Shown here: piece by piece, positions 36,173 to 39,917 of the stretch
How the letters are laid out: each line of letters starts with the position of its first letter
How positions within the stretch are numbered: the first letter of the stretch is position 1
Assembly: GCA_903910385.1 (NCBI GenBank)
Contig: CAIVZM010000025.1
Span: forward strand, 1 to 39,917
DNA length: 39,917 bases
From: an uncultured Armatimonadota bacterium
GTDB taxonomy: Bacteria; Armatimonadota; Armatimonadia; Armatimonadales; Armatimonadaceae
Reading direction: 5' to 3'
The notes under the pieces: generated by a model
What the model saw: only the letters and a program-made list of their open reading frames with translations
What the model was told of the DNA's origin: nothing
Database searches by the model: none
Program-made: the position numbers and the translations under genes

Positions 36173-38668
36173 ATGACGCTTACCACAACGACGATATCCC
36201 ACCGAAATTCCCCCTGCGCCCGCCGATTTGCGGCGATAGCGCTTCTTGTCTTTTTCACCCTTTCCTGTCGCGCCGTCAGCGCTGAGCCGTTACGGTTCTG
36301 GGCGGTCACTGGCAGCGTCAAGGACGTGGAGATGTTCCGCCGACTGGCGGACGACTTCCATAAAAAGAGTGGCATCACAGTCGAAGTGACCCCGCTGGCG
36401 TGGGGAAACTTCGCCACCAAATACTTCGCCGCGATGGCGGCAGGACTGCCGCCCGATATCGGCGTCACTAATCTGGGCGGGCCGTTCGATTACGGCGGTG
36501 TCGGCGGTCTGGTCGATCTGCGCTCGGAGTTCAAAGGTGAGATCGAAGCGCTGGAGTCAGGATATTACCCCAACGTCCTGCCCATGTTCACCAGCGGCGA
36601 GAAGCTGTATGGAGTCCCTTCCGACCTTTCCACCCTCGCCGTCTATTACCGCACCGATATTTTCGACAAACTCGGAATGACTCCCCCGAAGACATGGTCG
36701 GAACTCAACGCCTGTATCGCCAAACTGGAAGCCAACAACTACCGCTTCTACTTCGGGTGGACGGCGGGAGCGCAGTGGGCGGATGAACTTTACACCCTGC
36801 CCTATGGACTTCCGCGCTTTGCGATGGGGAGTGATGGTATCCCGAAGACGAACTGGAACGATCCGCAGTACCAGAAGGGCATTCTGCAGGCGATGCGCCT
36901 CTGGAATATGCACGACTCGCCAGGTCGTGATCTGGGAAGTCGCGCTATCGGAATGTTCCGTTCCAATGAACCGGGGACGGCGATTGCGCTGATGGTGGAT
37001 TTGAACAGCGTCGCCGGACAGATTTCCGAGACCGCGCCCGATCTGGCAGGGAAATGGGGCGTCGTCCCGTGGCCCAAAGCCGATGATGGCAAGCCCTATA
37101 ATGTCATGGGCGGCACCACCTATGTCATCTTCCGCAAGTCGCAAAAAAAACGCGAGGCATGGGAGTGGTTGAAGTACCTGAACACGCCCGAAGCCCAGCG
37201 CATCATGATTCTCGACCGGGCGAAACGCGGCGATGATTCCACCCTTATGATTTCACCGGTCAAGGCGGTCTGGGCGCCGGAAAACAATGCCTTCTGGGCG
37301 AAGCCGGAGTTCGACGGACAACGAAATCTACAGAAAGTTATCACCGGAGTCCTGCCGACGCTGGCGACTACTCCCACTATCCACGGCGCCGTTGAGGCGA
37401 GCCGTCTGGAAGCGAACCTGCTCGACAAAATGGGGACATTCATTCGCGACCGTCTGGATTCTCTCGCCGGAAATGCGAACATCAGCCGCACCGAACTGCT
37501 CCGCCGTTTCGGTTCCGCAACGATGGAAAAGGAGCGACTCGCTCTGGAGACGGATGTCGCGGCAAAGCTCAAGGCAGACTATGCCGCGATCACCCCGGAA
37601 GCGGAGAAGCTATTGCGCGAAGGGACGATCCATTACACTGAGCGTTACGGGAAAATCGTTGCAGACTTGCCCACCTACGAAGGGAAATGGAGTGCCCTCG
37701 ACACCGCAAAGTCTATCGCCACTGCTCTGATGGTAGGGCTGGCGATTCTGGCGCTGACGATTCCGGCGTACCGTCGTCACCTGATTTCGTATCTGTTCAT
37801 TACCCTCCCACTGGCGCTGGCGATCATCTTTGTTTTCGTTCCGGCGTTGACCGCGCTCTACCTGTCATTCACGGACTACCACCCGGTATTGCCACTGGCG
37901 ACGGCGCGATGGGTAGGAGCGGAAAACTACGCTGAGGTCGTGCGCTCCGGAGATTTGACCAGTAGTATCGGGCATACGCTCAAATACGCGCTTTTCACTC
38001 TGCCGATTGGCATTCTGCTCGCATTGATGTTCGCCTATCTGTTGAACAGCAATCTGCGCGGGGAACGGTACTGGCGCTTCCTGTACTTCTCCCCCCTGGT
38101 CACCAGTATCGTCTCTATTGCGCTGATTTTCACGCAGTTGTTCCTTGCGGGGCGGCAGGGATGGCTCAATGCGCTGTTGCTCTCTCTGAATCTGGTGCGT
38201 GACCCGGTTCCCTTCCTGACTTCCGAGCATACGTTCCTTAACTGCGTGATCGTTCTGGCGATCTGGCATGGACTGGCGTTCACGATTCTCGTCTTTCTGG
38301 CGGGACTGCAACAGATTCCAGTGGAACGGTATGAGGCGGCGTCCGTCGATGGCGCCGGACCGCTCCGCCAGTTCTGGAATATCGCCGTTCCTGGTCTGCG
38401 CCCGCAAATCTTCTTTGTCGCCGTCCTCGGTATGATGGGCGCTTTCCAGGTATTCGAAACCATCTACACGCTTGCCGGGAAAAGCGGGGATGCCGGGGCG
38501 CGGTTCGGCCCCAACGACTCGGCGCTCACTCTGGTGCCCCTCATCTATCACACCGGGTTTGAGACCTTCGAGATGGGCAAGTCGTCGGCAATCGCTTATG
38601 TGCTGTTTGCATTGATTCTGGCGCTGACCATCGTACAAATCCAGTACTATCGCCGGAAGGAGTCCTGA
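36173..38668 (+). CDS. CUT1 sugar ABC transporter: binding protein fused to MalF-type permease
   Basis: An 831-residue single frame combining two usual proteins. ATG 36173 follows GAGGGA. Signal: FAAIALLVFFTLSCRAVSA (about 19-37). Residues about 38-480 are a family-1 solute-binding protein: LRFWAVTGSVKDVEMFRRLA, GITVEVTPLAWGNFATKYFA, YGVPSDLSTLAVYYRTDIF, WEWLKYLNTPEAQ. An extra hydrophobic span (SIATALMVGLAILALTIPAY, about 513-532) joins it to the permease, which has about six further spans and the EAA loop EAASVDGAGPLRQFWNIAVP near 721-740. The extra span would carry the chain from outside to inside, so MalF topology is kept. Followed three bases later by the MalG-type gene. No ATPase gene is present here. 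Confidence 0.88.
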   Translation: MTLTTTTISHRNSPCARRFAAIALLVFFTLSCRAVSAEPLRFWAVTGSVKDVEMFRRLADDFHKKSGITVEVTPLAWGNFATKYFAAMAAGLPPDIGVTNLGGPFDYGGVGGLVDLRSEFKGEIEALESGYYPNVLPMFTSGEKLYGVPSDLSTLAVYYRTDIFDKLGMTPPKTWSELNACIAKLEANNYRFYFGWTAGAQWADELYTLPYGLPRFAMGSDGIPKTNWNDPQYQKGILQAMRLWNMHDSPGRDLGSRAIGMFRSNEPGTAIALMVDLNSVAGQISETAPDLAGKWGVVPWPKADDGKPYNVMGGTTYVIFRKSQKKREAWEWLKYLNTPEAQRIMILDRAKRGDDSTLMISPVKAVWAPENNAFWAKPEFDGQRNLQKVITGVLPTLATTPTIHGAVEASRLEANLLDKMGTFIRDRLDSLAGNANISRTELLRRFGSATMEKERLALETDVAAKLKADYAAITPEAEKLLREGTIHYTERYGKIVADLPTYEGKWSALDTAKSIATALMVGLAILALTIPAYRRHLISYLFITLPLALAIIFVFVPALTALYLSFTDYHPVLPLATARWVGAENYAEVVRSGDLTSSIGHTLKYALFTLPIGILLALMFAYLLNSNLRGERYWRFLYFSPLVTSIVSIALIFTQLFLAGRQGWLNALLLSLNLVRDPVPFLTSEHTFLNCVIVLAIWHGLAFTILVFLAGLQQIPVERYEAASVDGAGPLRQFWNIAVPGLRPQIFFVAVLGMMGAFQVFETIYTLAGKSGDAGARFGPNDSALTLVPLIYHTGFETFEMGKSSAIAYVLFALILALTIVQIQYYRRKES

Positions 38669-38671
38669 CCT

Positions 38672-39511
38672 ATGAGTGGCGCAACCCGTGGACAGCGCTC
38701 CGAGCGCATTATCACCTACACGATCCTGATCATCGGCGCGTTCCTGATGGCGTTGCCATTTTACTATATGGTCGTCACGTCGCTGAAGCCGATGACCGAA
38801 GTCTCTCAGCCCAATGTCAGCCTCATCGTCCGTAACCCCACCCTGCAACCGTACCGCGAACTGATCGATGCCGGACTGATCCTCCGCGCTACCGGAAACA
38901 GCCTGATCACTTCCGCGCTACTGACTGCAGGTAGTCTGTTCTTTTGTTGCCTTGCCGGTTATGCGTTCGCCAAGCATCGCTTTCCGGGGCGGGAGACGCT
39001 GTTCCTTGTCCTGCTGGCAACCATGATGATTCCCGGCACCGTGCTTCTGGTTCCAGGCTTCCTGCTCTTCCGCGATTTTGGCTGGCTGGACACGTGGGCG
39101 CCGCTGATTATTCCGGGGCTTGCGGGGGCGTTCGGCGTTTTTCTGGCGCGACAGTTCATTGAGAAGATACCCGATAGCCTGATCGAGTCCGCGAAACTGG
39201 AAGGATTGGGAGAGTGGCGCATCTTCCTGTCCATTATCCTGCCGCTCTCCAAACCCCTGCTGGCGACCCTCGGCATCCTGACCTTTTTGGGTTCATGGAA
39301 TAACTTCATGGGGCCGCTGATCATCCTGCTGGACGAGAAAAAGTTCACGCTCCCGTTGGTGGTCGCTCTCCTTCAGGGCCGTTTCCCCGGCAAGGACAAT
39401 ATGCAAATGGCGGGCGCGATGATCTCCATTCTGCCCGTCCTCATCCTGTTCTTCTTCTTCCAGCGTCAGATCGTCCAGAGCCTCGCCACCAGCGGCTTGA
39501 AAGAAGATTGA
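38672..39511 (+). CDS. CUT1 sugar ABC transporter permease, MalG-type
   Basis: A 279-residue inner-membrane permease with six spans (TYTILIIGAFLMALPFYYMV first). ESAKLEGLGEWRIFLSIILP near residues 173-192 is the EAA loop that docks with the ATPase (usual form EAAxxDGA). FFCCLAGYAFAKHRFPGRE and FLGSWNNFMGPLIIL are standard MalG-family segments. It starts three bases after the fused binding protein/permease stop, with GGAAGGAG overlapping that stop region, so the two are an operon and form one heterodimeric channel. The ATP-binding subunit must be encoded elsewhere. Confidence 0.92.
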   Translation: MSGATRGQRSERIITYTILIIGAFLMALPFYYMVVTSLKPMTEVSQPNVSLIVRNPTLQPYRELIDAGLILRATGNSLITSALLTAGSLFFCCLAGYAFAKHRFPGRETLFLVLLATMMIPGTVLLVPGFLLFRDFGWLDTWAPLIIPGLAGAFGVFLARQFIEKIPDSLIESAKLEGLGEWRIFLSIILPLSKPLLATLGILTFLGSWNNFMGPLIILLDEKKFTLPLVVALLQGRFPGKDNMQMAGAMISILPVLILFFFFQRQIVQSLATSGLKED

Positions 39512-39602: not shown

Positions 39603-39829
39603 ATGGAACGGGCTTTCGTTATACTGAATTGAATTTCAGCCGTACTGGTTCGCCTCAGGAGACATTTCCCACCAGGCGCCTCAAACTGCTGAAAACGTAT
39701 CTCGCCGTCCGCGACGAAACCGCCTTCCCCGTCATTAAGCGTCTGCACAAACCTGGCAAAACCGAATCCAACCCCCTGCACGGATTTGTTTATATATGGG
39801 CAGACACGGGGCGTTGCGGTCGGGGATGA
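39603..39829 (+). CDS. Doubtful small ORF pair running into repeats
   Basis: ATG 39603, with AGGAG seven bases upstream, gives only nine codons (MERAFVILN) before TGA 39630-39632. That stop overlaps TTG 39629, which opens a second frame of 66 codons (TRRLKLLKTYLAVRDETAF in its middle) ending inside the tandem repeat. It could be a frameshifted or repeat-truncated gene. I recognise no family. Otherwise 39512-39797 shows nothing. Confidence 0.22.
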
Positions 39830-39876
39830 AGGGCAGACACGGGGCGTTGCGGTCGGGGATGAAGGGCAGACACGGG
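39798..39876. repeat. 33-bp tandem repeat, about 2.4 copies
   Basis: The unit begins GGGCAGACACGGGGCG and ends GGGGATGAA. Copies lie at 39798-39830 and 39831-39863, identical, and a 13-base partial copy at 39864-39876. The third copy then runs into a hairpin. Confidence 0.85.
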
Positions 39877-39885
39877 GGTCTGCCC
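39864..39885. repeat. REP-like hairpin at right window edge
   Basis: GGGCAGAC (39864-39871), a six-base loop, and GTCTGCCC (39878-39885), followed by CTACC and, at the very end of the window, CCGTAGGGGCA. This GTAGGGGCAGAC composition is typical of dispersed REP-type repeats in several phyla. The related arm CGTAGGGCAG appears at 4732. Confidence 0.6.
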
Positions 39886-39917
39886 CTACCCCAAACCGTG
39901 CATTATCCGTAGGGGCA

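Follow-up and report, generated by a model that had tools for sequence, protein, structure and literature searches.

The operon at the end of the analysed contig very probably encodes a CUT1-type ABC sugar importer in which binding protein and MalF form one polypeptide, which works with an unlinked UgpC/MalK-type ATPase and which likely carries a beta-linked oligosaccharide. The window, i.e. the whole stretch of DNA that was analysed, is a contig of 39,917 nucleotides from an uncultured Armatimonadota bacterium (CAIVZM010000025.1, assembly GCA_903910385.1).

A single frame for binding protein and permease

The frame of the fused chain has no internal stop codon over its 831 codons; the features of the chain and of the adjoining malG are collected in Table 1. 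Both Pfam domains scored well above cut-off, with SBP_bac_1 matching residues 55-342 at E 7e-32 and BPD_transp_1 matching residues 613-822 at E 4e-15. In the hydropathy profile the six MalF spans were located at 541-559, 606-624, 642-660, 691-709, 746-764 and 805-823. The start of malG lies 3 bp past the stop codon of the fused chain. The best matches of the two permeases, UgpA-type for the fused chain and UgpE-type for MalG, were above the Pfam and below the NCBI equivalog cut-offs. In this permease family the EAA loop is the docking site of the ATPase, and sequence and alignment placed such a loop in both the fused MalF and MalG. The first-pass annotation, which had described an uninterrupted 831-codon frame with signal peptide, binding domain and permease with EAA loop, followed by MalG, was correct on each of these elements and on their positions. 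A cysteine near the signal peptide, C32, is not conserved among the 16 orthologues, which thus have no conserved lipobox, and a lipoprotein anchor for the fused chain was therefore rejected.

Table 1. Features of the fused chain and of malG in window coordinates
Feature	Position	Strand	Basis
Fused solute-binding domain and MalF-type permease, 831 aa	36173..38668	+	ATG start, ORF, Pfam, orthologues
Signal peptide, residues 1-37, hydrophobic core 19-37, AVSA-EP cleavage-like site	36173..36283	+	hydropathy and sequence reading
Family-1 solute-binding domain, about residues 38-430	36284..37462	+	Pfam match 55-342
Stalk, about residues 431-508, predicted mostly helical, same length in all orthologues	37463..37696	+	model and alignment
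Extra transmembrane span TM0, about residues 509-532	37697..37768	+	hydropathy, model, alignment
MalF/UgpA-type permease core, six spans, residues 541-825	37793..38647	+	domain matches, hydropathy
EAA loop region, residues 716-745; residues 710-743 read LAGLQQIPVERYEAASVDGAGPLRQFWNIAVPGL	38318..38407	+	sequence, orthologue alignment
MalG/UgpE-type permease, 279 aa	38672-39511	+	Pfam, best models

The genome is a draft and the operon lies at a contig end, which could raise the suspicion of an assembly or sequencing artefact, or of a decaying gene pair joined by the loss of a stop codon. The probability of this is negligible, given that 16 distinct fused orthologues come from independent genomes and have a junction of constant length, that the binding-protein and permease domains are both conserved and that the closed genome G128 carries the same fused chain. 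The orthologues refute an assembly artefact. Together with the domain E-values, their gap-free junction confirms that the fusion is beyond chance.

The link between binding domain and MalF

An extra hydrophobic span at about residues 513-532 had been noted at first pass, with the argument that it solves the topology of the chain. By hydropathy, from which all spans were called rather than from a trained topology predictor, TM0 comprises residues 514-532 and is followed by a short basic hinge at 533-540 (AYRRHL). In all six of the first orthologues, hydropathy recovered the signal peptide, the extra span and the six MalF spans, with an additional weak hydrophobic stretch in one of the six. Six-span permeases of the MalF/UgpA type have both ends in the cytoplasm. 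Since the binding domain must be outside and MalF starts in the cytoplasm, TM0 is needed, and the evidence supports it as the element that the topology requires. The earlier argument for a span that is present, conserved in the orthologues and topologically necessary therefore stands.

Sixteen distinct chains remained for alignment after removal of duplicates. In all 16, the segment from W375, at the end of the binding domain, to S539, at the start of MalF, measured exactly 165 residues without a gap. The majority fraction in the same alignment was 0.51 for the stalk and 0.46 for TM0, as compared to 0.74 for the MalF core, so that conservation within the mature chain was lowest in stalk and TM0. 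Constant length combined with drifting sequence is what is expected of a structural strut, and it excludes chance read-through.

A structure prediction, which the first-pass annotation had recommended, is available in the form of an AlphaFold model of the chain from 13 sequences. With a mean pLDDT of 61.5 this model is weak, and only the secondary structure and the binding-domain fold were taken from it. It contains a long helix at 452-497 with pLDDT around 80-90 and, for TM0, a helix at 508-529. The weakness of the model leaves the geometry of the stalk uncertain; the link between the domains is predicted to consist of a helical stalk of fixed length plus the span.

The low conservation of stalk and TM0 could also be explained by a chain that is translated as one and processed after export, with release of a free binding protein and retention of TM0-MalF, so that the fusion would merely fix a 1:1 supply. 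This appears improbable, because the exactly constant, gap-free length of the stalk in 16/16 chains speaks for a structural role of the intact link and because in the known case of a MalE-MalF fusion, discussed below, the fusion is transport-competent. We therefore favour a binding domain that stays attached to MalF.

Distribution of the fused chain

A genome contig scan, which detects close relatives only and does not show absence elsewhere, returned six full-length orthologues with 46-63% identity, five of them in Armatimonadota and one in a genome bin. Its matches outside Armatimonadota had no fused binding domain. Plasmid matches covering most of the query consisted of two genes wherever they were annotated, and in the two unannotated plasmid matches that were read, binding protein and permease were separate genes as well. 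A profile search in 251 Armatimonadota genomes found the full-length chain of the window's family in its own genome and in eleven others. All eleven belong, in this sample, to one other taxonomic family, f14, which appears to correspond to Fimbriimonadaceae; a further genome, the twelfth, had a fragment of the chain at a contig end. Among the sampled genomes, the window's is the only one of the twelve of its own taxonomic family with the operon (36173-39511), the other members all being in f14. A MalG of about 275-305 aa came directly after the fused chain in every neighbourhood read. The MalF half of the window's chain is up to 77% identical to f14 members, and the operon was likely transferred horizontally between the two lineages.

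The first-pass annotation had proposed a search for the same domain order in other genomes, and this order is present in the 16 distinct orthologues and in other families of chains across the phylum. Its view of the fusion as an exception to a rule of separate CUT1 genes did not survive this search, as fusions are common in Armatimonadota. Family B, a second family of fused chains, was found at E below 1e-150 in 146 of the 251 genomes (85 of 146 genera), almost always as a single frame of about 800-900 aa, and is near-core in the phylum. Likewise, a binding domain was present in 31 of the 33 long MalF-type chains collected. Two frames of MalF type, each 606 aa long, were seen at L016:7050-8870 and L078:2024-3844, with about 300 residues preceding the first span; Pfam recognised no binding domain in this N-terminal part.

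The window's own genome contains three SBP-MalF chains: that of the window, one of 841 aa on contig C22 and one of 825 aa on contig C67. The C22 chain (144184-146706) belongs to family B; in the loci read, the MalG partner of this family has an unusual length of 370-590 aa. The C67 chain, at about 98820-101298 on the minus strand, has no adjoining MalG. A lone MalG-type protein of 604 aa is encoded on yet another contig (C18, about 166.8 kb).

Number of fusion events

The linker of family B is nearly fixed in length, with 84-87 residues between anchors, and is homologous to the linker of a further family, C (hhalign 98%). The stalk of the window's family showed no detectable similarity to the linkers of families B or C (hhalign probability under 1%). 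In the MalF-domain tree the fused chains occur at three places separated by well-supported branches, and a single clade of all fused chains was weakly rejected (AU p 0.033). Based on the tree and the linker comparison, we favour at least two fusion events as the better reading, short of proof. One ancient fusion, ancestral to all fusions of the phylum and followed by later splitting in some lineages, would account for the identical domain order and position of TM0 throughout and for the homology of the B and C linkers. The dissimilar stalk of the window's family, the separate places in the tree and the weak rejection of one clade speak against it and make it unlikely.

The ATPase

No importer ATPase was found within the window, the ABC-ATPase matches being frames of 592 aa and 682 aa at 1.2 kb and 15-16 kb. 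The window spans the entire contig, of which only about 400 bp remain past malG, and the downstream side of this copy lies beyond it. A near-tandem short repeat (gggcagacacggggcgttgcggtcggggatgaa) occupies window positions 39780-39890 at the very contig end, possibly an assembly break point. In the orthologous loci read, with the downstream side included, no importer ATPase was found either.

The genome of the window encodes two ATPases with a MalK OB domain. One of them passes the NCBI UgpC cut-off, the other falls just short, and neither has a BPD_transp_1 permease nearby. Exactly one MalK/UgpC-type ATPase was found in each of eight relatives searched; six of the eight have the window's family, and there the ATPase is encoded on a different contig or, in G128 with its single contig, at a distance of 1.7 Mb. 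About nine importers of the window's genome pair a family-1 binding protein with MalF/MalG-type permeases, and with two ATPases, one or two of them would have to serve many importers. From the lack of a nearby ATPase, the first-pass annotation had deduced a shared MsmX-like subunit and had advised looking for orphan msmX/ugpC-type ATPases; the genome counts, with two such ATPases unlinked to permeases, agree with it. That a shared MsmX/UgpC-type ATPase drives the fused importer is well supported; the pairing itself is deduced by elimination.

An operon without ATPase could also be reconciled with a binding domain that acts as a sensor without transport, or with a chain that is a receptor anchored by MalF/MalG. 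We consider this highly improbable in view of the conserved EAA loops and MalG and of the unlinked UgpC-type ATPases, the usual situation in CUT1 systems with a shared ATPase (PMC7658222), and retain the assignment as an importer.

Candidate cargo

The closest solved folds of the binding domain, as judged from the weak AlphaFold model, are those of beta-1,2-glucooligosaccharide-binding and beta-glycoside-binding proteins, and the best sequence matches are proteins of the same two kinds, the cargo matches having 21-24% identity. Eight tryptophans of the binding domain are invariant in the 16 orthologues. In G128 the gene order is GntR-type regulator with sugar-sensing domain, GH2-like, fused chain, MalG, GH5-like. 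A GH5-like gene is also downstream in locus L009, a GH2 protein is nearby in L011 and L012, and a divergent DUF2961 protein (DUF2961 corresponds to glycoside hydrolase family GH172) is found in L012 and L013; these glycosidase neighbours are not constant among the orthologous loci. Genes of sugar type also occur further upstream in the window, not adjacent to the operon; two of them encode TIM-barrel isomerase-like proteins and one a Gfo/Idh/MocA dehydrogenase. Because of the fold matches, the eight invariant tryptophans and the GH2/GH5/DUF2961 neighbours of the orthologues, a beta-linked oligosaccharide is our best guess for the likely cargo.

Proposed working and significance

In the proposed importer, the signal peptide would direct export of the binding domain, which the stalk, some 75 residues long, would keep next to the external side of the MalF/MalG pore. 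TM0 would lead the chain back to the cytoplasm for the start of MalF. Every transporter would thus own one captive binding domain, and one of the two unlinked UgpC/MalK-type ATPases would dock on the EAA loops and energise it. Such tethering may alter the transport kinetics, as the first-pass annotation suggested. More tentatively, SBP-MalF fusion may characterise Armatimonadota as a phylum and have arisen there two or more times, with a membrane span added on every occasion and a linker whose length hardly varies. As part of this broader proposal, the link of the window's family would be a rigid helical stalk with one domain permanently docked on the pore, a mode of operation unlike that of importers that have free binding protein in surplus.

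Comparisons of tethered with free binding proteins have usually been drawn between importers of unrelated families. In Armatimonadota, CUT1 importers of the two kinds coexist within genomes and apparently share their ATPases. Nature thus provides a test of how affinity, rate and the demand for surplus binding protein respond when a binding domain is held captive at a 1:1 ratio. For annotation, many "solute-binding proteins" of about 820 aa in Armatimonadota are in fact half permease.

Comparison with known systems

The importers UgpABCE, MalEFGK2 and LpqY-SugABC share with the window system the binding protein family, the MalF/MalG pair, the EAA loops and a UgpC/MalK-type ATPase. They differ from it in having a separate binding-protein gene and an ATPase that is normally in the same locus. 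In the MsmX-dependent importers of Bacillus subtilis, too, the binding proteins are separate chains. Like the window system, these importers have operons without ATPase and an orphan MalK-type ATPase elsewhere; MsmX was shown to be one ATPase serving many CUT1 importers (PMC7658222), a pairing that we infer for the window system.

Other type I importers likewise have a binding domain covalently attached to the membrane subunit. In OpuA (betaine) the connection is made by a short linker of 11 residues plus a hydrophobic span that serves as anchor (PMC11065425), and in GlnPQ (amino acids) tandem binding domains are linked to the membrane domain (PMC8025302). Both belong to other transporter families and have other cargos than the window chain, which gave no GlnP/OpuA match when compared with the betaine (OTCN) and polar amino acid (PAO) families, its best matches being family-1 sugar-binding and UgpA/MalF. 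Unlike OpuA and GlnPQ, the window chain has a single N-terminal binding domain, and its importer two different permease subunits.

A natural MalE-MalF fusion reportedly occurs in Bdellovibrio bacteriovorus. As reported in a citing review, this CUT1 maltose/maltodextrin importer, in which one MalE domain is joined to MalF, is competent for transport (Licht et al. 2019, Res Microbiol 170:1-12, PMID 30193862, via PMC7756565). The first-pass annotation, which regarded CUT1 parts as normally separate genes and fusions as known for other classes such as betaine transporters, was right about OpuA and has to be amended for CUT1, where by this account a transport-competent fusion was already documented. 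The window's chain is hence not new in kind, neither in its fusion, as far as that review describes the earlier one (PMC7756565), nor in an anchor span between the domains (OpuA, PMC11065425). Novelty appears to lie in the spread through the phylum, in an origin that was probably repeated and in the stalk of fixed length; a literature search in open-access papers found no paper on such fusions in Armatimonadota. On the terms of the citing review, the system of Licht et al. resembles the window's as a CUT1 importer with one binding domain covalently joined to MalF. Its cargo is maltodextrin, for which there is no evidence here, the neighbours suggesting beta-glycans. Set against that account, the window system is distinguished by its fixed-length stalk with TM0, the lack of a linked ATPase, the glycosidase neighbours in orthologues and its phylum-wide spread.
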